Shown here piece after piece: positions 13,928-39,486 of a stretch of DNA of 64,000 nt (the stretch's first letter is position 1; every line of letters begins with the position of its first letter). The stretch covers positions 1-64,000 of IMG/VR virus record IMGVR_UViG_3300027963_000056, one strand, 5' to 3'. The notes beneath the pieces were generated by a model. That model ran no database searches. It saw only the letters and a program-made list of their open reading frames with translations, and was not told the DNA's origin. The translations under genes and the position numbers were made by a program. This DNA is from a virus.

Positions 13928-14364
13928 AAATTGGACTGAGTTACAGTCGATGTGTCCGTGATATTGTGGATGGTACAGTAGACATTGCGGATGTTCTTAT
14001 ACTAATCACTCGCACGGATTTTGATCCGCATGATGATGAGCAGTGGCGGGGCATCTGGGTTGGCTACGGTGGTGGCACAGACAATGCATACAGCCGTGGC
14101 TTCTTCAGTCAAAGCAATCCTGAATGGGCTGGCTATCACGATGAAGATCGTTTTCGTAGTGTCAGTATTGAACTTTGGGAATCAGGTAAGTTACACCAGC
14201 CACGCAAGTTTGGCGTAAAGCCTACTCGCCGTCCTGAAATATGGTTGGAAACTGTGCTACCAGATTCTGAGATGATGAGCCGTCCCGCAGTGAAAGATGC
14301 CTGGGATCAGTTCCAGACCATTGCAGGTTTGACCAATACCAAACTGGACAAGAGTTACAGATGA
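13924..14364 (+). CDS. Conserved phage protein beginning MKIGLSYSRC
   Basis: 146 residues: MKIGLSYSRCVRDIVDGTVD, then LILITRTDFDPHDDEQW and a Gly/Trp-rich centre (GIWVGYGGG). The family recurs in T4-like phages in my memory and is uncharacterised. Four-base overlaps on both sides make it part of a translationally coupled string. Confidence 0.75.
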   Translation: MKIGLSYSRCVRDIVDGTVDIADVLILITRTDFDPHDDEQWRGIWVGYGGGTDNAYSRGFFSQSNPEWAGYHDEDRFRSVSIELWESGKLHQPRKFGVKPTRRPEIWLETVLPDSEMMSRPAVKDAWDQFQTIAGLTNTKLDKSYR

Positions 14365-14819
14365 AAAAAATCTACTACGAAAAACGTGGTCGCAGATATG
14401 TGCCTGTGGCAGAAAACGACTACGACATGTTTGATGCCTTTCCCAAAGGATCACATCTTGTGATGTGTTACCCAGGCGGGCAAAGCAAACGCTACAACAT
14501 CAATCCCAACCATGCGGCCCTGCTTGCGGCCAGTCGTGTGGCTGAGTTTGCCATGTGTGATGCTCTGCGCAAGGCCAGCGAAGTACAACCAAGTCGTACT
14601 CCTCTTACACCTGAGCAAATAGCGGCCTGGAATCACTTGATTGAAGTGTTTGGCGAAGATGCTAGATCACTATCTCGGGCCAGTGCTCATGACATTGCTG
14701 AAGCAGGATTGAAAGCATTACAAACAGAAGCAGATCAATTAATGAAACACGCAAGTGTAAAACATGCATACGAACAATTCCTGTTGGTATGCGAACTGAC
14801 CAAGAAGGAAAACGCATGA
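14361..14819 (+). CDS. Conserved hypothetical phage protein
   Basis: 152 residues; the N-terminal third is basic (MKKIYYEKRGRRYVPVAEND), the remainder mostly helical with Ala-rich stretches (HAALLAASRVAEFAMCDALR). No catalytic motif. Overlaps its neighbours by four bases each. Confidence 0.7.
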   Translation: MKKIYYEKRGRRYVPVAENDYDMFDAFPKGSHLVMCYPGGQSKRYNINPNHAALLAASRVAEFAMCDALRKASEVQPSRTPLTPEQIAAWNHLIEVFGEDARSLSRASAHDIAEAGLKALQTEADQLMKHASVKHAYEQFLLVCELTKKENA

Positions 14820-14929
14820 TGTGTATCTCATCCAGAAATCTTGAAATACAGTTACCATGGGAACCAGGCCTCCTGGAATGGTTACAACAACACTATCCTG
14901 CTTCGGGATATTTTTTAATAGAGGATTGA
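14816..14929 (+). CDS. 37-residue phage protein
   Basis: MMCISSRNLEIQLPWEPGLL then EWLQQHYPASGYFLIED. The start overlaps the preceding stop and the next ATG lies one base after its stop, so it is held in the operon's coupled chain. Too short for a family call. Confidence 0.5.
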   Translation: MMCISSRNLEIQLPWEPGLLEWLQQHYPASGYFLIED

Positions 14930-14930
14930 T

Positions 14931-16139
14931 ATGGCCACCATTGAAGAACAACAAAAACTCATTGAAGTTTTGAAATTTACTCCAAGAACCTACAAAGTCA
15001 GTATGTGGGGCTACGGTGGTGAAAAGGTCATGGGCACAGTAGAACGAGATGTATGGGACTACTGCATGGAGCACCAGGTTGACCTATCTGAAATTGCCTG
15101 GAGCGATGAAGAAACTGTTCAAGATGATATGGGCTTAGATGTAGATCGACTACCATTTCCCCCAGGTTCATGGTACGAATGTGACGATATGACACACACC
15201 AATGGTGTTAGCCGTAATGCTGGCACACTACAGATTGAAGATGAAACTGGTGCTGTGGTATTTGAACGGAGATTAGAAGATATGGATGGAGGCAGTGACG
15301 ATAGCCCCGAATGGTCATGCAATGACGAAGCCTGGGTTGGCAGTAAGCCTGCTGGCACAGTGGTGTTCATCGGTACTAGCAATGAAAAAGGCACATTCTT
15401 CGAAGGCGAAATCAACCTTACGCAACCTTTTGATATTACCAAACTAACTTTGGGCTACGATGACATTGACGGTGAGGAACTGGTCAACAGCGTGACCTAT
15501 GATGATGAAGACATTGATAACTTTGGTGGTAGTACAGACGGTAAAAGTAGTGACTTTGGAATGTATCTTGTAATAGATAGCAACACCTGGGAAACTTATG
15601 CGCCTGAAGAAAAGGACTGGGGACATCCTCCACATGGATCAAGTCCCAGCACTTGGGAAAAATCTGAGACATTTAAATTTAAGAAAGTCCAGCCCACTCT
15701 CCCAGGCTATTACAGTTGTACATGGCGACACTCTGGTACAACATATGGCACAGCATACTGGGATGGCACACAGTTTGGGGAATGGGAATACGGCAAGTTC
15801 AATCCTATTACAGGAGAGATTGTCACTTGGTCAGGATACAACTGGGACACCGGTTCATGGGTCAATCAACCACCAGAGCCTGTAGATATTAGTTGCGATA
15901 ATAAGAAATGCGATTGGGTAGGCAAGAGTGAAGATCGTCGCACCGACGATGACTACAACGACCATTGCCCCGAATGCGATGGCACAGAGTTTACTTGGAT
16001 TGACTATGATCCAGACTCAGCAGTTGGACGCAAGAATCGTGCTAAGTACTGCGAAGAGTGGGATCCAGCAGTGGCACTAGAACGAATTGTAGTGCCTGCA
16101 AACAATGTACGGGCCAGGTGGCCAACCAACAGACCTTAA
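14931..16139 (+). CDS. Conserved phage protein with C-terminal zinc ribbon
   Basis: 402 residues, acidic and aromatic. The N-terminus (LKFTPRTYKVSMWGYGGEKV) is familiar from T4-like phage hypothetical proteins. The centre has beta-rich Gly/Trp segments, and the C-terminus contains CDNKKCDW ... HCPECDG, two Cys pairs about 35 residues apart that should bind zinc. No enzymatic motif recognised. Codon use and the short gap to the next gene fit the surrounding operon. Confidence 0.75.
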   Translation: MATIEEQQKLIEVLKFTPRTYKVSMWGYGGEKVMGTVERDVWDYCMEHQVDLSEIAWSDEETVQDDMGLDVDRLPFPPGSWYECDDMTHTNGVSRNAGTLQIEDETGAVVFERRLEDMDGGSDDSPEWSCNDEAWVGSKPAGTVVFIGTSNEKGTFFEGEINLTQPFDITKLTLGYDDIDGEELVNSVTYDDEDIDNFGGSTDGKSSDFGMYLVIDSNTWETYAPEEKDWGHPPHGSSPSTWEKSETFKFKKVQPTLPGYYSCTWRHSGTTYGTAYWDGTQFGEWEYGKFNPITGEIVTWSGYNWDTGSWVNQPPEPVDISCDNKKCDWVGKSEDRRTDDDYNDHCPECDGTEFTWIDYDPDSAVGRKNRAKYCEEWDPAVALERIVVPANNVRARWPTNRP

Positions 16140-16150
16140 AGGAGAAAACT

Positions 16151-16840
16151 ATGAATGATACACTTGTATTTAATGATGAACAATACCGTTCAGCCGAACA
16201 AATCAACTCAGCCATGGGCCGTGTTTACGGACACATGAGTCTGGCAGTGATTGTGAGTATGCTGATCAGTTACTGGGTAGGCACCACACCAGAGTTGCTA
16301 CAGTTCTTTTTCACTGGCGTGATGAAGTGGATTGTGATTTTTGCACCGCTAGCGGCCATATTTGGTGTGAGCATGGTGCTGGGTAATAACCCAAGCAAAC
16401 CAGTAGCACAGTTATGCCTACATGGCTTTGCCGCTCTAATGGGTCTGAGTTTTTCAATGATCTTTGCTGTGTTTGCCATGGGGTCAATTGTGAGTGCCTT
16501 TATGGGTGCGGCCATCTTGTTTGGTGTAATGAGTGGATATGGCTACTTTACCAAACGCAGTCTTGACAGCATGGGCAAGTTTATGATTGTAGGTTTGATC
16601 GCCATCTGTATTGCCAGTATTGTGAACATCTTTATTGGCAGCACCGTGATGCAGATGGTGATCTCTGCACTGGCTATCATTATCTTCTTGGGACTTACTG
16701 CCTATGACACACAACAGATCCGTGAAGAACTCAGTGTAGAAACTACTGATGCCGCAGAAGTGCGTGGTGCGTTGACCTTGTACATGGACTTTATCAACTT
16801 GTTCTTGAATTTGTTGCAATTGTTTGGCGATAGAAAATAA
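16151..16840 (+). CDS. Bax inhibitor-1/YccA-family membrane protein
   Basis: 229 residues with about seven hydrophobic segments and a soluble N-terminus (NDEQYRSAEQINSAMGRVYGHM). The C-terminal part, FLGLTAYDTQQIREELS followed by ALTLYMDFINLFLNLLQLFGDRK, is the signature of bacterial BI-1/YccA proteins. In E. coli YccA binds the membrane protease FtsH and slows its action; other members are calcium leak channels. In this window it stands 2 kb before clpX, so a role in controlling host proteolysis is attractive, though a channel role is equally possible. The ATG at 16151 follows AAAGGAG; an upstream in-frame extension overlapping the previous gene is unlikely. Confidence 0.9.
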   Translation: MNDTLVFNDEQYRSAEQINSAMGRVYGHMSLAVIVSMLISYWVGTTPELLQFFFTGVMKWIVIFAPLAAIFGVSMVLGNNPSKPVAQLCLHGFAALMGLSFSMIFAVFAMGSIVSAFMGAAILFGVMSGYGYFTKRSLDSMGKFMIVGLIAICIASIVNIFIGSTVMQMVISALAIIIFLGLTAYDTQQIREELSVETTDAAEVRGALTLYMDFINLFLNLLQLFGDRK

Positions 16841-16868
16841 ACATTACTGATTTTAGAACAACAATAAG

Positions 16869-16898
16869 TTGACACCGCCACCACTTTTCTTGTATAAT
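16869..16898 (+). promoter_or_regulatory. Sigma-70-type promoter for the 17.1-20.4 kb operon
   Basis: TTGACA 16869-16874 and TATAAT 16893-16898 with an 18-base spacer; about 195 bases of leader follow before the ATG at 17097. This is the nearest clear promoter upstream of clpX and rpsU. Confidence 0.8.
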
Positions 16899-16904
16899 GT
16901 ACGT

Positions 16905-17096
16905 GTGCATGAGCAAGGAGATTGGTGGCGATCTAATGGTATGAGCGGGGTGATCGATTCGCCCGGGCCCGACATAACCGTGGCAGGTAGATATAATGCC
17001 CACAAGGTTGAGACACTGACCAAGATCTAGCAATAGATTAAAACCGGCTGATACCCGGTGTATGCCCAGTTGGATTATCAGTGAAAGGAAGTTTAA
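16905..17096 (+). ncRNA. Long, possibly structured 5' leader
   Basis: This is the longest untranslated leader in the window. It contains an ACCGG/CCGGT hairpin at about 17041-17059 and a competing longer-range pairing CTGATA with TATCAG (about 17046-17083), so two mutually exclusive folds are possible just before the ribosome-binding site AAAGGAAG. A 29-codon frame (16941-17030) lies inside. It could be a regulatory leader or a small RNA; no known riboswitch class is recognised. Confidence 0.4.
16941..17030 (+). CDS. Possible 29-residue leader peptide
   Basis: ATG at 16941 opens MSGVIDSPGPDITVAGRYNA and continues to KVETLTKI. An AAGGAG lies 20 bases upstream, too far to be ideal. It might be a leader peptide or just a chance frame in a structured RNA. 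Confidence 0.25.
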   Translation: MSGVIDSPGPDITVAGRYNAHKVETLTKI

Positions 17097-17414
17097 ATGT
17101 CTGTTAAAATAGAAGCCTCTGATCCTATGCTTCCGTCCCTTGACTCTCTTAGAACAACGGCTTTGCCCATGCACAAATTATATTTCGAATTGTCAAGTGT
17201 GGACACATGGTACACTATCATGCGAGAAGCACGAGCACAGTTCGGTAAGAATTGGCGTAGTCAAGCACACGTCAAACGTAGACTAGAACATGCCGGCCTC
17301 TGGCGAATAGGTGGCTCCACAGAACGTGTTTGGTTTGAAGTGCCAGATCCTAAGTTTGGCACCTGGATAGCAATTAAACATGCTGTTAGACAAGTCGAAC
17401 CCACCGGTAAATAA
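17097..17414 (+). CDS. Hypothetical protein, 105 residues
   Basis: Contains a basic central region (FGKNWRSQAHVKRRLEHAGL) followed by WRIGGSTERVWFEVPDPKFG; the spacing resembles a small helix-rich DNA-binding fold followed by a beta hairpin, but I recognise no family. It is the first full-length gene after the long leader and the 16869 promoter. Confidence 0.65.
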   Translation: MSVKIEASDPMLPSLDSLRTTALPMHKLYFELSSVDTWYTIMREARAQFGKNWRSQAHVKRRLEHAGLWRIGGSTERVWFEVPDPKFGTWIAIKHAVRQVEPTGK

Positions 17415-17420
17415 TACTCT

Positions 17421-18989
17421 ATGATATTTGGTTTCAGCATCCTGGCCACAGCAATTTTACTCAGTTGTGTGGCCGCATATTACTCAGTAGCAGGTCTTAC
17501 TGCCATCTTCTCCGCGGCAACTATTCCTGTGATCATCATGGGCGGTTCATTGGAACTGGGCAAGATTGTGGCCACCGTTTGGTTACATAATAATTGGAAA
17601 CGTGCTGGATTTTTGTTCAAGGCATATCTAGTACCAGCAGTGATGTTCTTGATGTTACTAACATCAATGGGTATCTTTGGATACCTCTCCAAGGCACACT
17701 CAGATCAAAGCCTAGTGTCAGGCGACTCAATTGCAAAGGTGGCAATCTATGATGAAAAGATCAAAATATCTCGTGACAATATTGATGCCAACCGCCGAGC
17801 ACTTAAACAGATGGATGAGGCAGTGGACCAAGTTATGGGCCGAAGCCAAGATGAAAAAGGTGCCGACAAAGCAGTTGCAATACGAAGAGGCCAGCAAAAA
17901 GAACGGGCTAGGATACTTGTTGACATTGAAACCGAACAGAAAAAAATTACTAGCCTTAATGAAGAGCGGGCACCACTAGCGGCCGAGTTCCGTAAGGTCG
18001 AGTCAGAGGTAGGTCCAATCAAATACATTGCGGCCTTGATCTATGGAGATAACCCTGATGCCAATGTACTAGAACGTGCTGTACGTCTTGTGATCATCAT
18101 GATTGTGTTGGTGTTTGACCCACTGGCACTTACATTGATTCTGGCCGCCAACAAACAATTCCAATGGGCTAGAGAAGGCACAGGCGGCTTCATACATGAC
18201 GAGCCCCGGTACGAGCCCGATGATGGTCCGTTATCAGAGTCTCAGGTTGATCAACTTAAAAAATCTGTGGAAGTGTTCAAAACAGAGCCGCCCGACGATC
18301 CTATACCTTGCTACAAGTGTAGCACACCTTTAGTAGACGCTCCGGGTATTGGCTTGTTCTGTCCCAACAAAGAATGTGATGTAATAGACAATGTCAACGG
18401 TGAGGAACCTGTCAAATTTGCACCGATTGAAATCGAATACAAGTTTATAGACGAACACCACGAACCCGATCATGATCCTGACTTGCATGTCTATGACAAT
18501 GAGAGATTGGTATCACGTTTTGATAAAATACAGGCAGTTGAACCTCCAGATGAAGAGATTGACGACGATGAGGATGATGAAATCAAAACTGCCATTAAAA
18601 AGTGGAAGTCCGACCATCCTGACGACACCATAAAAAATCAACGTTACAAGTACATGCGTGGCGAGATTGCTGAATTGCCTTGGATGGGTTTGATAGCCGA
18701 CAATGCCGGTGGCAGAGAAAGTCGTAGTGGCTTTGGTATTGGTTTTCCAGAAATCCCCAACAAAGGTGATACTTTTGTACGGGTAGATATCATACCCAGT
18801 GTGCTGTACAAATACAACGGCGTTAACTGGATTGCTGTCGACAAAAATCTCAGCGATAGTTATACCTACGACTCGGCTTATATTGAGCATCTAATAAACA
18901 AAATAAGTACTGGCGAATACGACCCAGACTTGTTGAGTGACAGCGAACGTGAACAAGTGGCAGACTACTTACAAACAAAACAATCCTAA
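17421..18989 (+). CDS. Multi-pass membrane protein with coiled coil and zinc ribbon
   Basis: 522 residues. Three N-terminal hydrophobic segments (about 5-25, 29-50, 69-92), then a charged coiled-coil region (about 108-200), another membrane segment near residue 220-245 (LVIIMIVLVFDPLALTLILA), and a long acidic cytoplasmic tail with a Cys4 ribbon (CYKCS ... CPNKEC). The GGSLELGK motif in the first part is familiar from large T4-like phage membrane proteins of unknown role. No Shine-Dalgarno sequence precedes the ATG; instead AATAC sits three bases before it. The stop overlaps the clpX start (TAATG). Confidence 0.75.
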   Translation: MIFGFSILATAILLSCVAAYYSVAGLTAIFSAATIPVIIMGGSLELGKIVATVWLHNNWKRAGFLFKAYLVPAVMFLMLLTSMGIFGYLSKAHSDQSLVSGDSIAKVAIYDEKIKISRDNIDANRRALKQMDEAVDQVMGRSQDEKGADKAVAIRRGQQKERARILVDIETEQKKITSLNEERAPLAAEFRKVESEVGPIKYIAALIYGDNPDANVLERAVRLVIIMIVLVFDPLALTLILAANKQFQWAREGTGGFIHDEPRYEPDDGPLSESQVDQLKKSVEVFKTEPPDDPIPCYKCSTPLVDAPGIGLFCPNKECDVIDNVNGEEPVKFAPIEIEYKFIDEHHEPDHDPDLHVYDNERLVSRFDKIQAVEPPDEEIDDDEDDEIKTAIKKWKSDHPDDTIKNQRYKYMRGEIAELPWMGLIADNAGGRESRSGFGIGFPEIPNKGDTFVRVDIIPSVLYKYNGVNWIAVDKNLSDSYTYDSAYIEHLINKISTGEYDPDLLSDSEREQVADYLQTKQS

Positions 18990-20203
18990 TGAAACCTAAC
19001 GATACAATCGACACCTGTAGTTTTTGCGGCAAACACAAAGATGTAGTGGCCAAACTCATAGTGGGTGAACAAGTTGCAATCTGCAACGAATGTGTGGAAC
19101 TTTGTGAAACTTTGCTTCACGATGAAAACATTATCAAACCAAGTGAGACAATTGAACTTGATCCTGTACTGATCAAACAGCATCTGGACCAGTATGTGAT
19201 CGGCCAAGATCGTGCCAAGCAAGTACTAAGTGTAGCAGTTGTTAATCATTACAAACGTATTACCAATCCCAATCCTGATATAGAAGTTGAAAAGTGTAAC
19301 ATACTCATGCTTGGCCCTACAGGTTCGGGCAAAACATTGCTGGCTCGAACTGTGGCACGTTATTTGGATGTGCCATTTGTGATTGCAGATGCCACGAGTT
19401 TGACCGAAGCAGGTTATGTAGGCGACGATGTGGAAAGTTTGATTAGCAGACTGTTTGCGGCGGCTGGCGGCGATGTAGGAAAAACTCAACGTGGTATTGT
19501 GTTTATTGACGAAATTGACAAGATCAGTCGCCGTTCAGAGAGTGCCAGTATCACCCGAGATGTGTCGGGAGAAGGTGTACAACAAGCCTTGCTTAAATTG
19601 GTAGAAGGCACCAAGTGTAGAGTCACTCCCACAGGCAATCGCAAGCATCCTTCAGGTGACATGATTGAAATTGACACCACCAACATCTTGTTTATTGCTG
19701 GTGGTGCATTTGTGGGACTTGATAATGTGGTCAAGAACCGGGTGCAAGGAACCAGCATTGGATTTGGTGCTAAAATTAAAAACGATACAATAACACACTT
19801 GGACCAAACCAATCCAGAAGACTTGATCAAGTTTGGTATGATTCCAGAGTTTGTGGGACGTTTTCCAAGTTGGGTTGCGCTCAATGAACTCAGCAAAGAA
19901 GATTTGATCCGTATCTTGCTAGATGTCAAACACAGTTACATAGAACAGTATTCCTGGTTGTTTGGGCAGGACAAAGTAGAACTAGAATTTTCACCCGATG
20001 CCTTGGAAATGATTGCAGATCGCACTATTCTAAACAAAACTGGTGCCAGGGGATTGCACAGTGAACTGGAGCGTGTGCTATTGCCCCATATGTTCTATTT
20101 GGCCCGTTATCGTAGGGAGGGTATCGACCATGTGTTTATTGACGCAGATCAGGTAAATACCCCTACAGAATTAAAGGAAGTGAATGCAAAAGCTCAGAGG
20201 TAG
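18989..20203 (+). CDS. clpX: ATP-dependent protease unfoldase ClpX
   Basis: 404 residues, near the usual 420. An N-terminal zinc-binding domain (C10, C13, C32, C35) is followed by the AAA+ module: Walker A GPTGSGKT (about 109-116), pore loop GYVGDD, Walker B VFIDEIDK (about 171-178), the RKHP loop, and the IGF loop (257-259, SIGFGAK) that docks into ClpP. Thus it should unfold substrates and pass them to a ClpP barrel, either the host's or the phage-encoded ones at 36686 and 38896. It lies downstream of a membrane protein in the same operon and overlaps the bS21 gene. All key elements are intact, so an active enzyme is expected. Confidence 0.97.
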
Positions 20204-20408
20204 ATCGGTACTGGTACAAGACGGTAATGTAGACAAGGCTCTACGCAAGTTCAAAAAGAAGATCATGGAAACAGGATTGCTGAATGAACTTCGCGACCGT
20301 GAATTTTATACCAAACCTACTACTGCTCGCAAACTCAAGGCCAGTGCCGCAAAGAATCGTTGGAAGAAGAAACTGGCCAGCCAAGAATTGCCAAAGAAAC
20401 TTTACTAA
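20184..20408 (+). CDS. rpsU: Ribosomal protein bS21
   Basis: 74 residues, close to E. coli S21 (71). Matching blocks are [38 protein letters not shown] and a Lys-rich tail ending KKLY. bS21 binds the 30S platform beside the anti-Shine-Dalgarno end of 16S rRNA and affects mRNA selection at initiation. It is one of the few ribosomal proteins known from phage genomes. AAAGGAAG precedes the ATG, which overlaps the clpX 3' end by 20 bases, so bS21 and ClpX are made together. It could replace host bS21 on ribosomes, favouring phage messages. Confidence 0.95.
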
Positions 20409-20429
20409 GCCAATTTTCTTCTGTATAAT
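20401..20429 (+). promoter_or_regulatory. Promoter for hsp20
   Basis: TTTACT 20401-20406 and TATAAT 20424-20429, 17-base spacer; the -35 box is weak. Transcription should begin at about 20436, exactly at the base of a hairpin. Confidence 0.65.
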
Positions 20430-20436
20430 AAATAAC

Positions 20437-20464
20437 AATGTAGTGCCCATAGTGGGGCTACATT
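20437..20464 (+). promoter_or_regulatory. 5'-terminal stem-loop in the hsp20 leader
   Basis: AATGTA pairs with TACATT and GCCC with GGGC, with a two-base bulge and a six-base loop. Position at the very 5' end of the predicted message suggests protection from decay or temperature-linked control; it is 35 bases before the start codon and does not itself cover the ribosome-binding site. Confidence 0.6.
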
Positions 20465-20498
20465 ACAAGTCATCTTGCTTATATAAAGGAGAAAACAA

Positions 20499-20951
20499 AT
20501 GACAAAAACTCTCACCCTTCGTAGTTTCGATATTCCCGCACTTCACAAATTTGGTATCGGTTTCGATAACATGTTTGATGATCTCATGCGTGTGAGTACT
20601 CAACAATCCACTTCAAACTATCCACCCTACAACATTGTACAAATCAATGAAGATGAGTACATGATCAGTCTTGCTGTGGCTGGATTTGGGCTTGATAATC
20701 TTTCAGTCACCAAGGACAAAAAGTTCTTGATTATTGAAGGCAAAGAGTATCACCCTGAAAGCGAAAACATCGTGCCAAACTATTTGCACAAAGGAATTAG
20801 CAATAGAGATTTCCGTAGAGAATTCCAACTTGCGGATCATGTGGAAATCAGCAATGCTCACCTTGAACTTGGTATTCTAAGTGTTCACCTGCGACGTGAA
20901 GTGCCAGAAGACGCCAAGCCAAAGACTATTGCTATCACCTACACAGTGTAA
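20499..20951 (+). CDS. Small heat-shock protein, Hsp20/IbpA family
   Basis: 150 residues. The alpha-crystallin domain runs from about 45 to 140 (YNIVQINEDEYMISLAVAGF, FLIIEGKEY, GISNRDFRREFQLADHVEIS) and includes the NAHLELGILSVHL strand containing the conserved G-x-L motif. Binds unfolding proteins and holds them for refolding or degradation. Hsp20 genes are known from T4-like cyanophages; here it sits between clpX-rpsU and clpS, with its own promoter and 5' hairpin, inside a proteostasis block. Strong AAAGGAG site before the ATG. Confidence 0.95.
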   Translation: MTKTLTLRSFDIPALHKFGIGFDNMFDDLMRVSTQQSTSNYPPYNIVQINEDEYMISLAVAGFGLDNLSVTKDKKFLIIEGKEYHPESENIVPNYLHKGISNRDFRREFQLADHVEISNAHLELGILSVHLRREVPEDAKPKTIAITYTV

Positions 20952-20957
20952 TATAAT
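20929..20957 (+). promoter_or_regulatory. Promoter for clpS
   Basis: TTGCTA 20929-20934 (inside the hsp20 3' end) and TATAAT 20952-20957 directly after the hsp20 stop, 17-base spacer. Confidence 0.65.
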
Positions 20958-20967
20958 AGTGTAAATA

Positions 20968-20992
20968 CAGTAGCGGGACGGTCCCGCTACTG
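20968..20992 (+). promoter_or_regulatory. Perfect 5' stem-loop in the clpS leader
   Basis: CAGTAGCGGG pairs with CCCGCTACTG over 10 bp around ACGGT. No T-run follows, so it is not a simple terminator for hsp20; the predicted transcript start (about 20964) places it at the extreme 5' end of the clpS message. Confidence 0.65.
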
Positions 20993-21009
20993 AACAACAA
21001 GGAACTGAA

Positions 21010-21321
21010 ATGGCACAAAGCGATACAAGAACACGAATTAAACCTGCTGAAGACTTAAAAGAACCACCAATGTACCGTGTTGTATATCTCAATGACAATC
21101 AAACCACATACGAATTTGTGGTTGAATCGTTGATGCAGTATTTTGATCATACTGTGGAAACTGCTCAAACTATCACTGCTGATATTCACGAAGCCGGATC
21201 GGCTTGTGTGGCAGTGTTACCTTATGAAATTGCCGAACAAAAAGGTATTGAAGTTACCATGTTGGCTCGCGCTCAGAGTTATCCGTTGCAGATCAGAGTC
21301 GAGCCCGAAGGCGTAGTTTAA
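21010..21321 (+). CDS. clpS: ClpS-like N-end rule adaptor
   Basis: 103 residues, like bacterial ClpS (about 106). Matches include KEPPMYRVVYLNDNQTTYEF, where the N-D pair lines the N-degron pocket, and ADIHEAG with the pocket His. In E. coli ClpS delivers proteins with N-terminal Leu, Phe, Tyr or Trp to ClpA. No clpA is present in this window, so the phage adaptor would work with host ClpA, or with an as yet unseen phage unfoldase. The third pocket residue is Asn instead of the usual Asp (NDN versus NDD). Ends tail-to-tail with the next gene, overlapping four bases. Confidence 0.93.
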   Translation: MAQSDTRTRIKPAEDLKEPPMYRVVYLNDNQTTYEFVVESLMQYFDHTVETAQTITADIHEAGSACVAVLPYEIAEQKGIEVTMLARAQSYPLQIRVEPEGVV

Positions 21322-22109
21322 AACTCTACCACAATACGTTGAGGGTAATACACTGGCTTGGCGTAAGTTGTATTGCCTCTACCGCGACAGTTGTTTACAA
21401 AACGTATACCTGATCGGACCTGATCCACACTACCGTGATAGTGGCCAAAGCACCAGGTATGCAGTTTGTTTTCAGTATCGGCTGCCATGGCCTGCATCAT
21501 GAGTCTGTTGCCCATGGTGTTGAATCTCATGGTACCGTCTAGATCTATGTCATGGGCTATCAGTGCAGGATCAGGTACAGTATGAGTAACCATCACAATC
21601 TTTCGAACATCTTTATGATTTTGTAATTTAGCCACACTAGATATCATGTATGTGGCATCAGTATTGCTCATTCTGGCTATGCCTTTGGTAGCATTTTCAG
21701 TTATGTGATATCTTTCTTGAGTCCATTGTGCAGCCTGTTCAGGGTCGATACCAAGATCAAAGTCAAACCCCCACCAACCGTTGGTGCCCAAAATGGCCAC
21801 GCCGTCTACTATGACCACATTATCCTGGAGGTAAACCACATTGGGAATACGTCGCAAGCGTCGAGTGAGATCACTGTAACTATGCCCCAAATCCTCCAGT
21901 TGTGTATAATGTTCATCGTTGCCATCAACGTAAAATACAGCCTGATAACACTTGCCCAGGTGTTTAAGGATGCGCACCAGAATGTCCGGATCTCGGGTAA
22001 CGTCACCGGCTACAATGCACACAGGACTCGTGGCCTGGTACGTCCAATCAAACTCGCCGGGCCAGGTTTCTATATGTAAATCAGAAATTAAATCAAATGC
22101 TAAACTCAT
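21318..22109 (-). CDS. Calcineurin-like metallophosphoesterase
   Basis: 263 residues with the full motif set: DLHIE (first DxH, as SDLH), AGDVTRD (GD), YVDGNDEHY (GND-type), VTHT and CFGHYHGSVD (GHxH). Two-metal phosphoesterases of this type hydrolyse phosphomonoesters, diesters or nucleotides; the substrate is not predictable here. A second, different member occurs at 49528. It is transcribed against clpS, with a TTAAATAT element five bases before its ATG and no ribosome-binding site. Confidence 0.88.
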   Translation of the reverse strand: MSLAFDLISDLHIETWPGEFDWTYQATSPVCIVAGDVTRDPDILVRILKHLGKCYQAVFYVDGNDEHYTQLEDLGHSYSDLTRRLRRIPNVVYLQDNVVIVDGVAILGTNGWWGFDFDLGIDPEQAAQWTQERYHITENATKGIARMSNTDATYMISSVAKLQNHKDVRKIVMVTHTVPDPALIAHDIDLDGTMRFNTMGNRLMMQAMAADTENKLHTWCFGHYHGSVDQVRSGIRFVNNCRGRGNTTYAKPVYYPQRIVVEF

Positions 22110-22133
22110 GATACATATTTAAAAGGAAATGCA

Positions 22134-22484
22134 ATGAACATTATATTTGGCGACTTGGTTGATTCTATACCCAATCATTATATTATACTAGAACTTGATA
22201 CTTTTCGACCCGCAGATAGTGATGAAACAATGACTGCATACTGTTTGGTCGAAAAATTAGCACTAGATGAATTTGTTACACTAGAGCATGATAAACAAAT
22301 CCATGCTGATGCGATGAACTATTACAAACAAAAACACTGGGATTATTGCAAACCGGCTATCCAAGGATTGATGGGACGATGGGGAGGCGAACTTGACACA
22401 TTTTACACAGATTTATTGACTCGAATCGAGCAACACAAACAAAACGGTGTGCCCGACAACTGGGACGCAACATTAATCAAGTGA
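22134..22484 (+). CDS. Conserved phage hypothetical protein
   Basis: 116 residues starting MNIIFGDLVDSIPNHYIILE. Mixed strands and helices (CLVEKLALDEFVTLEHDKQI), a few His and Trp residues, no recognised family. AAAGGAAA lies before the ATG. Its 3' end overlaps the convergent glycosyltransferase gene by eight bases. Confidence 0.65.
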   Translation: MNIIFGDLVDSIPNHYIILELDTFRPADSDETMTAYCLVEKLALDEFVTLEHDKQIHADAMNYYKQKHWDYCKPAIQGLMGRWGGELDTFYTDLLTRIEQHKQNGVPDNWDATLIK

Positions 22485-23790
22485 GAGAATTTTTTTCTTC
22501 TATCCAATTTTTAAGTTTTTTCCGGCATTCTAAAGTTGGCCCAAACCCCAAGTGACTGTCACGTGATCTGCAAGCCGCTAGTGCTGGATCATTTAATGCT
22601 ATGCGCTCTAGTTCTTGTTGATATTTTCCTGTGGCGGTCAATTGAGTAACACCTGATATAAAATTATCATGAAACTCCTTTATGATACTATTTTGCCACT
22701 CATTTGAAAAAAATAATTCTTTATTTTGTTTGGCAATTGCATACAATCTAGTCCACAACAGTTTTTTTGTACGATAATCTAGACAACTGATTCTTTTCAT
22801 TTCTTGTGCAATTGCCTCCAATCGCTTTCGCGGATCTGCAATGGTATCGTACGTTTCGTCTATTAAGCCGTCAAATGTTTTGAAACCATACTGCTTTAAA
22901 TATTGTAAACTACCAGCAGTGGCGGCCAGGATAAATGGACGACCGCATGCAATCGGTCGCAACGACTTTTCTGTCAGATGATGCCGGGAGTCGTCAAACA
23001 GGGTTTCTAGTACAACTTCTATTGCTGTACATGCATAATCGTTTGCATTGTAATCTGCACTAGCAAAAGCATCGTGAGAATTGGTTGGATACAATTCATG
23101 CAGATCATCACGACAAATGGCAAGAGTTGAGTTGTTGAATTTGTGTTGAGTGTATTGAACGTGATTATCAAACTCAGAAAATTTTGTTTTACAAAACAAT
23201 AATAAATTGTGATTGACCACAATCTCTGCCAGGGTCAATCGATACTCGCGTGTGCCCGACCATGCACGATTATAAATCAAAAAATCATGAGTGATGTTGT
23301 CAAAATTTGGCATTAACATAGGATCTATATTGGCAAATCTATACCAGTCTCGGGAGATAAGGGCATGACTCCAGTAGTACACACCAATGAATCCATTTTG
23401 CTTGTAGAGTTCAAGTTCCGAACTATTTTTCTCAGAATGGCATAATAATACTTGGTCATACGCCATCAACGGTAATTTAATACATGCTCGCAAATGTAAA
23501 CTGGCCACAAGATTTTTTGGATTGTCTGATGGATAATAATCTCCGTAGGTGTCCAAATAATCTTGGAAATCTTTTTCAGTATACAAGTTATAATTTAACG
23601 GTTCTTGGTCATGAAATATCAGAGATGGAGTAGTCATCCCTTTGATCCAAGAAATTGACGATGTCTGATAGATGCTCTTTAGATCATCAAGTTTTCTTGA
23701 GCCATGCGGGTAAAAGCCATAAATTATTAAGTCATCACGATTTGCAATATCATGTAAAAAGTTGTATAATCTATCTAAAGGTACGCTCAT
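22477..23790 (-). CDS. Probable glycosyltransferase
   Basis: 437 residues from the ATG at 23790. The C-terminal half contains LTEKSLRPIACGRPFILAAT, then GSLQYLKQYGFKTFDGLIDE: the E-K-x-x-R ... G-x-P-F pattern is the nucleotide-sugar-binding loop of GT10/exostosin-like transferases seen in phage and capsule loci. The N-terminal half (LIFHDQEPLNY, WSHALISRDWYR) fits a first Rossmann domain. A 24-codon upstream extension is possible but lies antisense to the start of the divergent dehydrogenase gene. Together with that gene it suggests glycan synthesis on the host surface or phage particle. Confidence 0.7.
   Translation of the reverse strand: MSVPLDRLYNFLHDIANRDDLIIYGFYPHGSRKLDDLKSIYQTSSISWIKGMTTPSLIFHDQEPLNYNLYTEKDFQDYLDTYGDYYPSDNPKNLVASLHLRACIKLPLMAYDQVLLCHSEKNSSELELYKQNGFIGVYYWSHALISRDWYRFANIDPMLMPNFDNITHDFLIYNRAWSGTREYRLTLAEIVVNHNLLLFCKTKFSEFDNHVQYTQHKFNNSTLAICRDDLHELYPTNSHDAFASADYNANDYACTAIEVVLETLFDDSRHHLTEKSLRPIACGRPFILAATAGSLQYLKQYGFKTFDGLIDETYDTIADPRKRLEAIAQEMKRISCLDYRTKKLLWTRLYAIAKQNKELFFSNEWQNSIIKEFHDNFISGVTQLTATGKYQQELERIALNDPALAACRSRDSHLGFGPTLECRKKLKNWIEEKNSLT
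23742..23770 (+). promoter_or_regulatory. Promoter for the 23791 operon, inside the divergent glycosyltransferase gene
   Basis: TTGCAA 23742-23747 and TATAAT 23765-23770, 17-base spacer; the ATG follows 20 bases after with AAAGG in between. Confidence 0.65.
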
Positions 23791-36643: not shown

Positions 36644-36651
36644 TATAAATA
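36644..36651 (+). promoter_or_regulatory. T4-late-type promoter octamer
   Basis: Exact TATAAATA just after the lipoprotein stop. Confidence 0.6.
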
Positions 36652-36685: not shown

Positions 36686-37267
36686 ATGATCATGCCAACT
36701 ATTGAAACTACCCCGACAGAACAAACTCACGCCCAAGCACTTGCCGATTCCGGCATGTATGTTTTCATGGGAGATGTAGATGAAGAAAGTATCAAACCAG
36801 TTGTGGAATGGTTGCTTTACGAAAACTATGTGACCAAGAAAAAGAAAAAAGAACTACTGCTCATGGTCTGCTCCAACGGAGGAGACATGGGTGCGGCCTT
36901 TGCCTTGATTGATGTCATGATGAGTTCTCGAATTCCAGTAAAAACTGTGGGACTAGGAACCATTGCATCAGCAGGCTTGCTAATCTTCATATCCGGCACT
37001 CACGGACGCCGGGTGCTCACTCCCAACACAAGTATTCTAAGCCATCAGTTCTCATGGTACAACGAAGGCAAGGCACATGAGTTGTTTGCTACCATGCGTG
37101 AGTTTGAACTCACACAGGCTCGAATGATTGCACACTATGAATTGTGTACAGGACTGGGTCGGGAAGAAATACGCACGAACCTGTTGCCACCACAAGACAT
37201 CTGGCTGTCAGCCCAAGAAGCACTAGCACTGGGCATCTGCGATGACATCAGTGTGGTCAAGAGTTAA
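36686..37267 (+). CDS. ClpP-family serine protease, divergent
   Basis: 193 residues with the ClpP fold: VCSNGGDMGAAFALID (oxyanion Gly-Gly loop), Ser95 in GTIASAGLL, His120 in SHQFSW and Asp171 in PPQDIWLSA; the spacing Ser-25-His-51-Asp is identical to the canonical ClpP at 38896. The N-terminal 20 residues that in ClpP form the axial pore and the hydrophobic docking strand differ, so it may form a mixed barrel or act with a different partner. There is no ribosome-binding site before the ATG at 36686 (an alternative ATG is at 36692). Confidence 0.9.
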   Translation: MIMPTIETTPTEQTHAQALADSGMYVFMGDVDEESIKPVVEWLLYENYVTKKKKKELLLMVCSNGGDMGAAFALIDVMMSSRIPVKTVGLGTIASAGLLIFISGTHGRRVLTPNTSILSHQFSWYNEGKAHELFATMREFELTQARMIAHYELCTGLGREEIRTNLLPPQDIWLSAQEALALGICDDISVVKS

Positions 37268-38844
37268 CCTTTTTTCTTACGTCCCAGCGTCTTTTCGTCA
37301 AAGTCGGGCTCTTGACTTTGTCTGGATGCTCGAGCACCTGGACCAGACAGTCTAGGTTCAGAACCTACCTGATCAAGTTTTGCATTCTCAGCATCAGTGT
37401 CGCCTACCGCAGTGGTGGTTACATCAGTATCCTTATTGCCACCACCGTTGTAACTAAAACTCACACGCCCAATAATACCGGTAGCCGCATAAACTTTAGT
37501 AGCATCTAGTCCCACAGTTCCTTTGAAATCTGGCGGATATTTACTGGTAAATCCAGTGACAGTATAATTGCCGGATTTTTCAGACCCGTTTAGGTGCAAC
37601 TGAATAATAGGACTGGAGTTAAGAAACTTTAAACAAGCCTCACCAAACTTGGGATCTGAATTTACGTTCTTGGCCACACGTCGAGCCAAGGCGGCCAAAG
37701 TGTGATACCCTGTATTGTAACGTGGGTTATCTGTTTTGGCATTGATGTCACCCATAAGATCCAGGATAGTCGGATTGGTAGGTGTGGCATTGGTTTTAAC
37801 CAACTGCTTTATTTCTGCTCCAGTGTCCTGATCAATGATGCCTTGCTCTATGCCATACACTATGGGAAAGTCTATAGCACTCATGGATCCAATTTTTTCA
37901 ATAATTTCCACCTGCGACGCATACGTGTCAAGCAACTCAGTCATGCCCTTGTTACGTGCAGTAGTCACACCATCCGAAATATTTTTAACTGATGCCGACG
38001 CACCTTTTTCACCCTTGCTAGAGATACCAATCTCTATACCACTTGGATGAAACAAGTAACTGTCTACTAGACCGTTGTTTTTGTCAGCTGGGAAATTGAT
38101 CGCGCTTCCATCATAGGTACCATCTTTGCCAAGTATATCTTTACGTGCGGCTTCAGCACCCACTCCCATATCCATGCCCTGGATCAAAGCAATAGGCCCA
38201 ATGGTTTCTCCTAGGTCATCACGCACAGCAGTGACCATGTCGCCCATGTTTTCAAACTTTGGCAATTGACCAGCCAGCAACTGATCCATGCCAGGTCGTA
38301 CTTTATCAATGCTGGCCATTTGATCGGGTGTTGTTCCTGGTCTAGTGCCCATGGCAGCCACGGTATCTGATGGAGTATCGAACGTAGAATTTGCTGGAAA
38401 CAAGTCAGCAGGTTTGAGTTTGTAATACGCACCTTTTAAACTTACTGCTTTGTTCAATTGCCAACCTCCGGGCAGTTCGGAGTTTTTCCAAAAGCCCGCC
38501 ATGTCAGGTTTTATTTCATTGAAAAATCTACCAAAATATGTTTGTTGCCCGGCCTCGGGACCGTTGAATGTAACAATAGCAAAGGCCTTGCTGGCTTGTG
38601 TGGGTTTGTTACTCCAAGTAATACTGGGATATTGTTTGAACAAATCTGCACCTGTTAGCGACATTTCATCATAGTTGGCATAGGCACCTGGCATGCCAGG
38701 AAAGTAGTCAACCTTGTCAAATACAATTTCAGCAGTGGGGTTATCCTTGGATCCTTGGAAAAACGAGTCGCCCGCATCGCGATACAATAGGCCACGACTT
38801 TTTTCCATAAGAACATTATCAAGTAAATTGAGTAGATCACGCAT
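37264..38844 (-). CDS. Large protein with possible capsid-targeting N-terminus
   Basis: 526 residues. It begins [20 protein letters not shown], like the PGDYG protein and the superoxide dismutase, with an L-M-E suited to prohead-protease cleavage, and ends in a very basic KTLGRKKKG. The centre has [20 protein letters not shown], an arrangement of Asp, Glu and Lys vaguely like a PD-(D/E)xK nuclease core, but this is weak. A head-internal protein, possibly injected with DNA, is my preferred reading. Convergent with the ClpP-like gene and divergent from the canonical clpP. Confidence 0.65.
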
Positions 38845-38895: not shown

Positions 38896-39486
38896 ATGCC
38901 AAATCTAGTGCCAATTGTGCTTGAACAAACCTCAAAAGGTGAACGCAGTTATGACATCTACAGCCGATTACTAAAAGACCGTGTGATCATGCTGGACACA
39001 GAAGTATCAGAACACACAGCCAGTTTGCTGGTAGCACAGATGTTGTTTTTGGAAAGTGAAAATCCAGACAAAGACATCAGCCTGTATATTAACTCGCCTG
39101 GCGGATCAGTCACAGCAGGCATGGCCATCTACGACACCATGCAGTTTATTCGATGTGACGTACAGACCATTGTGATGGGACAAGCATGTTCCATGGGAAG
39201 TCTGCTAAGTACAGCAGGAGCCGCAGGCAAGCGCATGATTCTGCCCCATGCTCGACACATGATTCACCAACCATCAGGTGGTGCTTCAGGACAAGCCACA
39301 GACATCCAAATCCAAGCAAGAGAAATCCAAAAGATGAAAGAATATCTTACTACGATCTATGTCAAGCACAACTCAGCGGGCAAAACCTTTGAGCAGTTGA
39401 GTGCAGACATGGAACGTGATTTCTTTATGTCAGCTCAAGAAGCCTTGGACTATGGATTAGTGGACAAGATACTCGACAAACGTTAA
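38896..39486 (+). CDS. clpP: ATP-dependent Clp protease proteolytic subunit
   Basis: 196 residues, very close to bacterial ClpP without a propeptide extension: [39 protein letters not shown], Ser99 in GQACSMGS, His124 in MIHQPSGG and Asp175 in [13 protein letters not shown], ending [11 protein letters not shown]. Forms a 14-subunit barrel that degrades proteins fed by ClpX or ClpA. The phage ClpX keeps its IGF docking loop, so an all-phage ClpXP is possible. The ATG at 38896 follows AAGGAG. The stop overlaps the next start (TAATG). Confidence 0.97.

Follow-up and report, generated by a model that had tools for sequence, protein, structure and literature searches.

The DNA studied here, 64,000 nucleotides that we refer to as the window, comprises positions 1 to 64,000 of the IMG/VR virus record IMGVR_UViG_3300027963_000056; the record has 93,911 bases and is itself a fragment of a phage genome. 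It encodes the unfoldase ClpX, the small heat-shock protein Hsp20, the adaptor ClpS and two ClpP peptidases, and we interpret these as members of a Clp protein turnover system that is owned by the phage, forms part of the gene core in a deep clade of huge phages related to T4 and has its clpX gene placed under a structured RNA leader. We put the probability of this interpretation at about 0.6. It draws on the genes themselves, their active-site and docking motifs, their co-retention and core status, a promoter and RNA covariation, all computed here. The role of the system would most likely be protein quality control and selective turnover of proteins during infection. Profile searches of the record revealed phage hallmarks, namely a clamp loader of the T4 type and a match for the baseplate wedge, and a megablast search of window positions 14000-23000 against the phage collection returned no match.

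An original prediction, made from the letters of the window, had named a BI-1-family protein, ClpX, Hsp20, ClpS and two ClpPs, and this inventory was borne out, as all six open reading frames (ORFs) exceed the Pfam gathering scores (Table 1). ClpX reaches 114.7 bits for AAA_2 and 53 bits for zf-C4_ClpX, both above gathering scores, and passes two NCBIfam equivalog cut-offs (528.8 bits versus 359 and 512.1 versus 370.75); in PADLOC it gave weak AAA matches only. The zinc domain, Walker A and B motifs, GYVG pore loop, RKH loop and the GAR motif of sensor 2 are kept, and the docking loop for ClpP, predicted to be intact, indeed reads SIGF and is thus of the IGF type, while some relatives have MGF or FGF instead. 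From these motifs the protein is predicted to assemble into a hexamer, to unfold substrates and to dock to ClpP.

Table 1. Features of the window considered in this work (window coordinates).
Feature	Position	Strand	Evidence and remarks
BI-1/TMBIM-family membrane protein	16151..16840	+	PF01027 (Bax1-I) 181.8 bits; aligns to YetJ
sigma70-type promoter, 12/12 consensus (TTGACA-18-TATAAT)	16869..16898	+	motif scan
structured leader RNA (candidate regulatory element)	16899..17096 (model match 16901-17095, ~195 nt)	+	covariation; upstream of orf17097
orf17097, 105 aa, first gene after leader	17097..17414	+	in 68/69 ClpX-seeded loci that extend 4 kb or more upstream
orf17421, 522 aa, membrane-like/coiled-coil	17421..18989	+	in 69/69 ClpX-seeded loci; stop shares one base with clpX start
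clpX	18989..20203	+	over NCBIfam equivalog cut-offs; motifs intact
bS21 ribosomal protein gene	20184..20408	+	PF01165 63.9 bits; overlaps clpX end
hsp20 (small heat-shock protein)	20499..20951	+	PF00011 49.4 bits (gathering 20.8); at most 1.5 kb before clpS in 76/76 loci
clpS (N-degron adaptor family)	21010..21321	+	PF02617 85.1 bits (cut-off 23); binding residues kept
clpP1, divergent	36686..37267	+	PF00574 97.6 bits; triad kept, axial N-terminal loop missing
clpP2, canonical	38896..39486	+	PF00574 272.5 bits; start after AAGGAG ribosome site

Scans of viral contigs seeded with ClpX and with ClpS yielded 547 confirmed relatives and at least 531 relatives, of which the best 80 of 547 and the best 80 of 531 were used. 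The resulting counts refer to a single lineage with near-copies included, loci with too little flanking DNA are omitted, and the two sets overlap, although the ClpS set, with 69 distinct ClpS sequences, includes 42 that are absent from the ClpX set. Matches to the Acinetobacter 'phage' MD-2021a (L122, CAKLQF020000008; L123, CAKLQF020000005) were dropped, their gene content being that of a bacterial chromosome (argC, rpiA, tig, tonB-dependent receptor). Around ClpX, Hsp20 and ClpS were each present in 58 of 58 loci that extend 4.5 kb or more downstream, and orf17421, orf17097 and BI-1 in 69, 68 and 21 of the 69 loci with at least 4 kb upstream. Around ClpS, Hsp20 was found in 76/76 loci, ClpX in 67/68 and orf17421 in 68/68, while other neighbors are less fixed: BI-1 (17/68), UDPGDH (31/57), ADI (35/57) and GT22477 (35/67). 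The picture is the same for loci whose ClpS sequences are specific to the ClpS set (Hsp20 45/45, ClpX 37/38). ClpX, Hsp20 and ClpS, for which a co-occurrence check had been suggested at the outset, thus stay together far more than most of their neighbors, and their association is real within one lineage.

We further compared the genome of a relative, G024 (417 ORFs), with those of the phages PA5oct (379 ORFs) and Phosso (649 ORFs), using a crude ORF caller on 20-kb stretches. G024 shares 80 reciprocal best hits with PA5oct and 59 with Phosso, and 52 genes are consistent in all three, among them ClpX, ClpS, ClpP2, ClpA, DnaJ and a GroES-like protein that is annotated 'chaperonin' in PA5oct. As members of this 52-gene core, these six look vertically inherited. 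Hsp20 is absent from the three-way list; it is a reciprocal hit between G024 and PA5oct, and the annotations of Phosso and of phage Atu_ph07 place it close to ClpS. The genomes of G024 and PA5oct are broadly collinear, so that the clustering is at least in part inherited gene order rather than a recent proteostasis island. In a tree of ClpX, 20 phage rows fall on one side of a branch (support 100/97) and 40 bacterial rows, taken from the 80 nearest, on the other; with the caution that the PA5oct branch is very long, this topology would fit a single old acquisition.

These data bear on the trivial explanation that a large genome has swept up random accessory genes, or that the contig is a mislabelled bacterial one. 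BI-1, FtsH and several neighbors are indeed patchy, and the phage collection apparently includes some bacterial contigs under a wrong label. Nevertheless, the near-invariant co-retention, the core status, the matches to phage structural and replication proteins and the separation of ClpX from the sampled bacterial ClpX make this very improbable; random acquisition is contradicted for ClpX, Hsp20, ClpS, ClpP and ClpA, and it may hold for BI-1.

ClpS is known as an adaptor of ClpA or ClpC, not of ClpX. Its alignment retains N34, D35, T38, V43, H66 and L99, together with E79 and K84 (E. coli numbering), the former group binding N-degrons and the latter two facing ClpA; position 40 is a tyrosine in the window and a methionine in the majority of relatives. 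The adaptor was present in 19 of 19 records examined, in part by construction, as these records were reached through ClpX or ClpS. A Clp_N profile indicative of ClpA matched 6 of 20 lineage records in one set and 7 of 12 in another, and among contigs of the lineage returned by the scans it matched 11 of the 13 with at least 200 kb and all six with at least 300 kb, with the gene located elsewhere in the genome than the ClpX-ClpS block. Each of six full ClpA sequences (750-758 aa) combines a match to Clp_N with a pair of Walker A motifs and an IGF loop, and in G024 both Clp_N and AAA score above the Pfam cut-offs. A DnaJ-type ORF adjoins the G024 ClpA gene, the same neighbor is found in PA5oct, and the accessible part of the report on Atu_ph07 likewise places DnaJ next to ClpA (PMC6102473). 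The phage from which the window derives probably possesses ClpA as well.

Conservation of the docking loops and of the ClpA-facing residues in ClpS makes cross-assembly with host machines plausible, and phage ClpS and ClpX might accordingly serve to reprogramme the host's ClpAP and ClpP, a role that has been proposed in print for phage ClpS in the part of a review accessible to us (PMC7824862). Redirection of host proteolysis, as the original prediction had suggested, would be a putative effect. Such hijacking is compatible with a phage-owned system, and we consider it rather unlikely; with ClpA and ClpP encoded by the relatives themselves, a host partner is not required.

Within the phage-owned system, ClpX would form a ClpXP protease with ClpP2 and perhaps ClpP1, while ClpS and the phage ClpA would deliver substrates with destabilizing N termini to ClpAP. 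Hsp20, DnaJ and the GroES-like protein would hold or refold client proteins. The operon orf17097-orf17421-clpX, with clpX in third position, would be driven by the strong sigma70-type promoter, probably early in infection, and since its first ribosome-binding site adjoins the structured leader, dose or timing could be set there through a ligand, a protein or folding of the RNA.

Among 83 distinct regions taken from upstream in relatives, 57 contain a promoter with all 12 consensus positions and 68 reach a score of at least 10, versus 3.9% of shuffles. Elsewhere in the block such scores occur before clpS in 75 and before hsp20 in 20 of 102 distinct upstream regions. Between the promoter and orf17097 lie 198 nt without a gene on the plus strand, and here an alignment of the window with 39 leaders, picked for diversity from 62 distinct ones, reveals 29 pairs in seven helices including one pseudoknot, formed by CACTG (17014-17018) and CAGTG (17079-17083), whose 3' strand abuts the Shine-Dalgarno sequence. 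Across the 40 sequences this structure is 94.9% paired, a figure favored by the choice of helices from the same alignment and a near-copy, and 118 two-sided compensatory cells, a count inflated by related rows, compare with 32.8 (sd 6.2) in shuffles, none of 500 reaching 118. Sliding the helix partners destroys the signal. Note that the leader does not stand out when folded as a single sequence (z 0.14), and the structure emerges from the alignment alone. Three variants that had been left out, L060, L070 and L206, are still matched by the covariance model with 62, 59.6 and 44.3 bits.

The model has a single match each in the record of the window and in G024; no significant match was obtained in PA5oct (a weak one at E 0.35), in Phosso or in two end stretches of Atu_ph07. 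Among 62 additional loci of the lineage, not all of which include the relevant flank, 29 match with E <1e-6, so that distant sublineages may lack the leader or have diverged in it. A DNA pattern derived from the RNA alone retrieved at least 120 stretches, many of them contigs already in the ClpX set, and 53 of 119 tested match the model (36/79 and 17/40). Wherever the DNA downstream of a match is usable, orf17097 comes directly after the RNA (51/51), and ClpX follows in 27/28 of the matches that extend 2.7 kb or more. Searching Rfam with the single leader sequence of the window gave no match at gathering score or up to E = 1. With a conserved, covarying structure upstream of a start codon, as in a cis-regulatory leader, the RNA is an unclassified candidate regulatory element for which ligand-dependent control is putative.

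Rather than a ligand-sensing riboswitch, the leader could be an autoregulatory protein-binding site in the style known from T4 gene 32, or a stand-alone small RNA, and the chance of this falls little short of even. The pseudoknot next to the Shine-Dalgarno sequence resembles protein-repressed leaders, and the invariant position before the small orf17097 points in the same direction. For a free small RNA the case is diminished, as a simple scan detected no terminator-like site on the plus strand between the leader and orf17421.

The complete Ser/His/Asp triads attributed to the two peptidases are retained in both, and the proposed start of clpP2 agrees with the ribosome site upstream of it. ClpP2 has the canonical axial loop and exceeds the NCBIfam cut-offs for the PRK00277 subfamily (315.9 versus 249) and for PRK12553 (254.9 versus 228). 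Proteins of the family were found in 23 of 40 records, with two copies in 20 of these, and in pairs in all six lineage contigs of at least 300 kb. The paired genes are mostly separated by 2-3.5 kb, with G042 and Phosso as cases in which they lie far from each other. In the window the pair is situated 15-18 kb downstream of the 16151-21321 block, and in six loci (L185, L187, L189, L198, L210 and L215) a ClpP gene follows ClpS after 2.5-4.1 kb. Two ideas on these genes were dropped. A serine of ClpP2 at the position of E. coli Tyr60 appeared to be a special docking residue, but ClpP of Bacillus also has a serine there. A T4-late-like element, TATAAATA, lies at 36644-36651, 35 bases before clpP1, and occurs four times in the window versus 1.88 expected; among relatives such sites precede clpP1 in 5 of 15 rows (a set that includes two badly placed long rows) and clpP2 in 0 of 27, a signal too weak to assign late-promoter timing. 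Between the clpP genes lies a 526-aa ORF on the minus strand (37264-38844) that has no match in Pfam, PHROG or PADLOC.

Several observations speak against the interpretation as a phage-owned turnover system. Beside ClpS, the metallophosphoesterase MPE (64/67) and orf22134 (61/67) are nearly as fixed as ClpX, and we know of no proteostasis role for either; conserved order alone is therefore no proof of shared function. In NCBIfam, equivalog cut-offs are missed by Hsp20 (IbpA, 118.2 versus 212), ClpS (best 73.9 versus 149) and, in the one sequence scored, ClpA (795 versus 993.15), and the 94-kb record that holds the window, a fragment, contains no match to ClpA. ClpP1 is devoid of the axial N-terminal loop and matched 10 NCBIfam models, each with a score under the cut-off (best 91.3 versus 228), and is thus a divergent peptidase of the ClpP superfamily rather than a canonical ClpP, while ClpP2 is just under the cut-off of TIGR00493 (301.5 versus 308.6). 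At the loci L474 and L206, clpX is missing from the site and the leader RNA, orf17421 and Hsp20 are nevertheless retained, so that the direct target of the RNA may not be ClpX; its immediate target is probably orf17097 or orf17421. Finally, G024 has no match to the S77 prohead protease, and the ClpP of PA5oct (gp212) is annotated as a head maturation protease with an ESI-MS/MS note.

The latter two points concern a different function altogether, in which the ClpPs would be proteases of virion maturation and ClpX and ClpA ATPases for assembly or replication, with no general proteolysis system. Head-maturation models related to ClpP do match the window peptidases, with scores below the cut-off (NF045542, cut-off 120; ClpP2 106.1, ClpP1 49.5), and the accessible part of a review assigns ClpA and ClpX of jumbo phages to the translocation of unfolded proteins or to virion assembly (PMC7824862). 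A virion role is weakened, however, by an S77 prohead protease separate from ClpP, present in 11 of 19 records, i.e. in 8 of 16 from the lineage and in all three cultured phages, and in five of six lineage contigs of at least 300 kb. ClpP2 keeps both canonical loop and triad, and the ESI-MS/MS note in PA5oct also accompanies many enzymes (RNR, FtsH, ligase). For ClpS, we know of no role in heads. Taken together, we regard this function as quite unlikely.

The phage-owned system also has a more ambitious form that strikes us as somewhat unlikely: a complete and self-sufficient core proteolysis system of ClpX, ClpA, ClpS and one or two ClpPs throughout the deep huge-phage clade, with its own N-degron pathway and, in the lineage of the window, a clpX operon that would have a translationally coupled coiled-coil membrane partner as a possible tether for ClpX and be controlled by a hitherto undescribed, pseudoknotted RNA switch responding to the state of the infected cell. 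This partner would be orf17421, a conserved protein in which hydrophobic helical segments at the N terminus are combined with a coiled coil and a small domain at the C terminus. Among 147 loci the spacing between its stop and the start of clpX is -3 in 75, 0 in 14 (the type of the window) and +3 in 12; most loci show an overlap or a distance of few bases, and 14 are separated by more than 800 bases. An AlphaFold2 model of the protein (mean pLDDT 71, pTM 0.32) gave no match at E ≤0.001 in a fold search against the PDB, and its only Pfam match, SRP68, stays below the cut-off with 19.2 bits. Tethering of ClpX to the membrane by orf17421 is speculation. For orf17097, searches of Pfam, PHROG, NCBIfam and PADLOC returned no match. 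The bS21 gene between ClpX and Hsp20 had been overlooked in the original prediction, as had ClpA in the relatives; bS21 holds this place in 123 of 150 loci and adjoins clpX in PA5oct.

The combination of Clp genes is not unprecedented in phages. It had been suggested that no described system holds all components, yet the record of PA5oct (vB_PaeM_PA5oct, Arenbergviridae, NC_071039) annotates the full set plus FtsH, with ClpX, S21, Hsp20, ClpS, an 'FtsH-interacting integral membrane protein', FtsH and ClpP within ~11 kb, and ClpA beside DnaJ some 13 kb beyond; the GroES-like 'chaperonin' is present too. As in the window, the order ClpX-S21-Hsp20-ClpS is on one strand. PA5oct differs in having FtsH next to its BI-1-like gene, a single ClpP, other genes in place of orf17421 upstream of clpX and no significant match to the leader RNA. 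Atu_ph07 (Agrobacterium, NC_042013) and Phosso (Sinorhizobium, PV764938) hold the ClpX, Hsp20, ClpS and ClpP part, without a match to BI-1. In the former, Hsp20-TK-ClpS and ClpX share a strand in a stretch that spans the circular start, thymidine kinase (TK) and other genes are inserted, and one ClpP is found by Pfam profile; according to the accessible text of its publication the phage encodes seven Clp proteins including ClpX, ClpA and ClpS, with ClpB also reported (PMC6102473). Phosso has ClpX, IF-3, S21, Hsp20, TK and ClpS in order on one strand and, like the window, two ClpPs, one of the divergent type, but ClpX and ClpS are ~16 kb apart, the ClpPs are distant from each other and the leader RNA has no match. 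With bacterial ClpXP, ClpAPS and the N-degron pathway the window shares motifs and families, ClpX even at equivalog level; it differs in that the set is encoded by a phage, ClpS, ClpA and ClpP1 are divergent, an extra divergent ClpP is present and Aat, the transferase for secondary N-degrons, was found in 0 of 21 records.

Among the best-ranked literature matches, with most subscription papers outside reach, no paper describes the Clp set as a conserved system. In the portions available, six Clp ORFs and Hsp20 are reported for AP-J-162 (PMC11242549), the paper on MIJ3 discusses FtsH and does not name ClpX, ClpS or ClpP in its text (PMC6892783), and a 2021 review states that several phages 'instead' encode ClpS and places ClpP and ClpS in different jumbo phages (PMC7824862). 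A text search of the available parts of four further papers (PMC10761892, PMC13282480, PMC11079468, PMC7162821) found no discussion of Clp, and in those of two others ClpP or CLP_protease is mentioned in passing (PMC13037316, PMC12363816). In the present data, ClpA, ClpX, ClpP and ClpS travel together as core genes in phages of Pseudomonas, Agrobacterium and Sinorhizobium and in the lineage of the window, and the reason for a virus to maintain N-degron and ClpXP machinery of its own can be sought directly in the cultured phages Phosso, Atu_ph07 and PA5oct. The leader RNA is a concrete candidate regulator with measurable predictions.

The membrane protein upstream of the promoter had been regarded as a relative of YccA, a known FtsH modulator. 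This label did not hold, as the YccA equivalog cut-off in NCBIfam is missed by far (40.2 versus 353 bits) and membership extends to the BI-1 family only. FtsH as its partner in the window lineage was likewise abandoned: FtsH occurs in 0 of 20 lineage records, and the single positive among 23 records searched is PA5oct. BI-1 proteins were detected in 10 of 20 lineage records, in some of them far from clpX, and BI-1 is most likely an accessory gene. In PA5oct the BI-1-like protein has a Pfam match below the cut-off, and its gene directly precedes that for FtsH (L120, NC_071039 174475-176890), providing a natural test case for a phage-encoded pair of FtsH and modulator.

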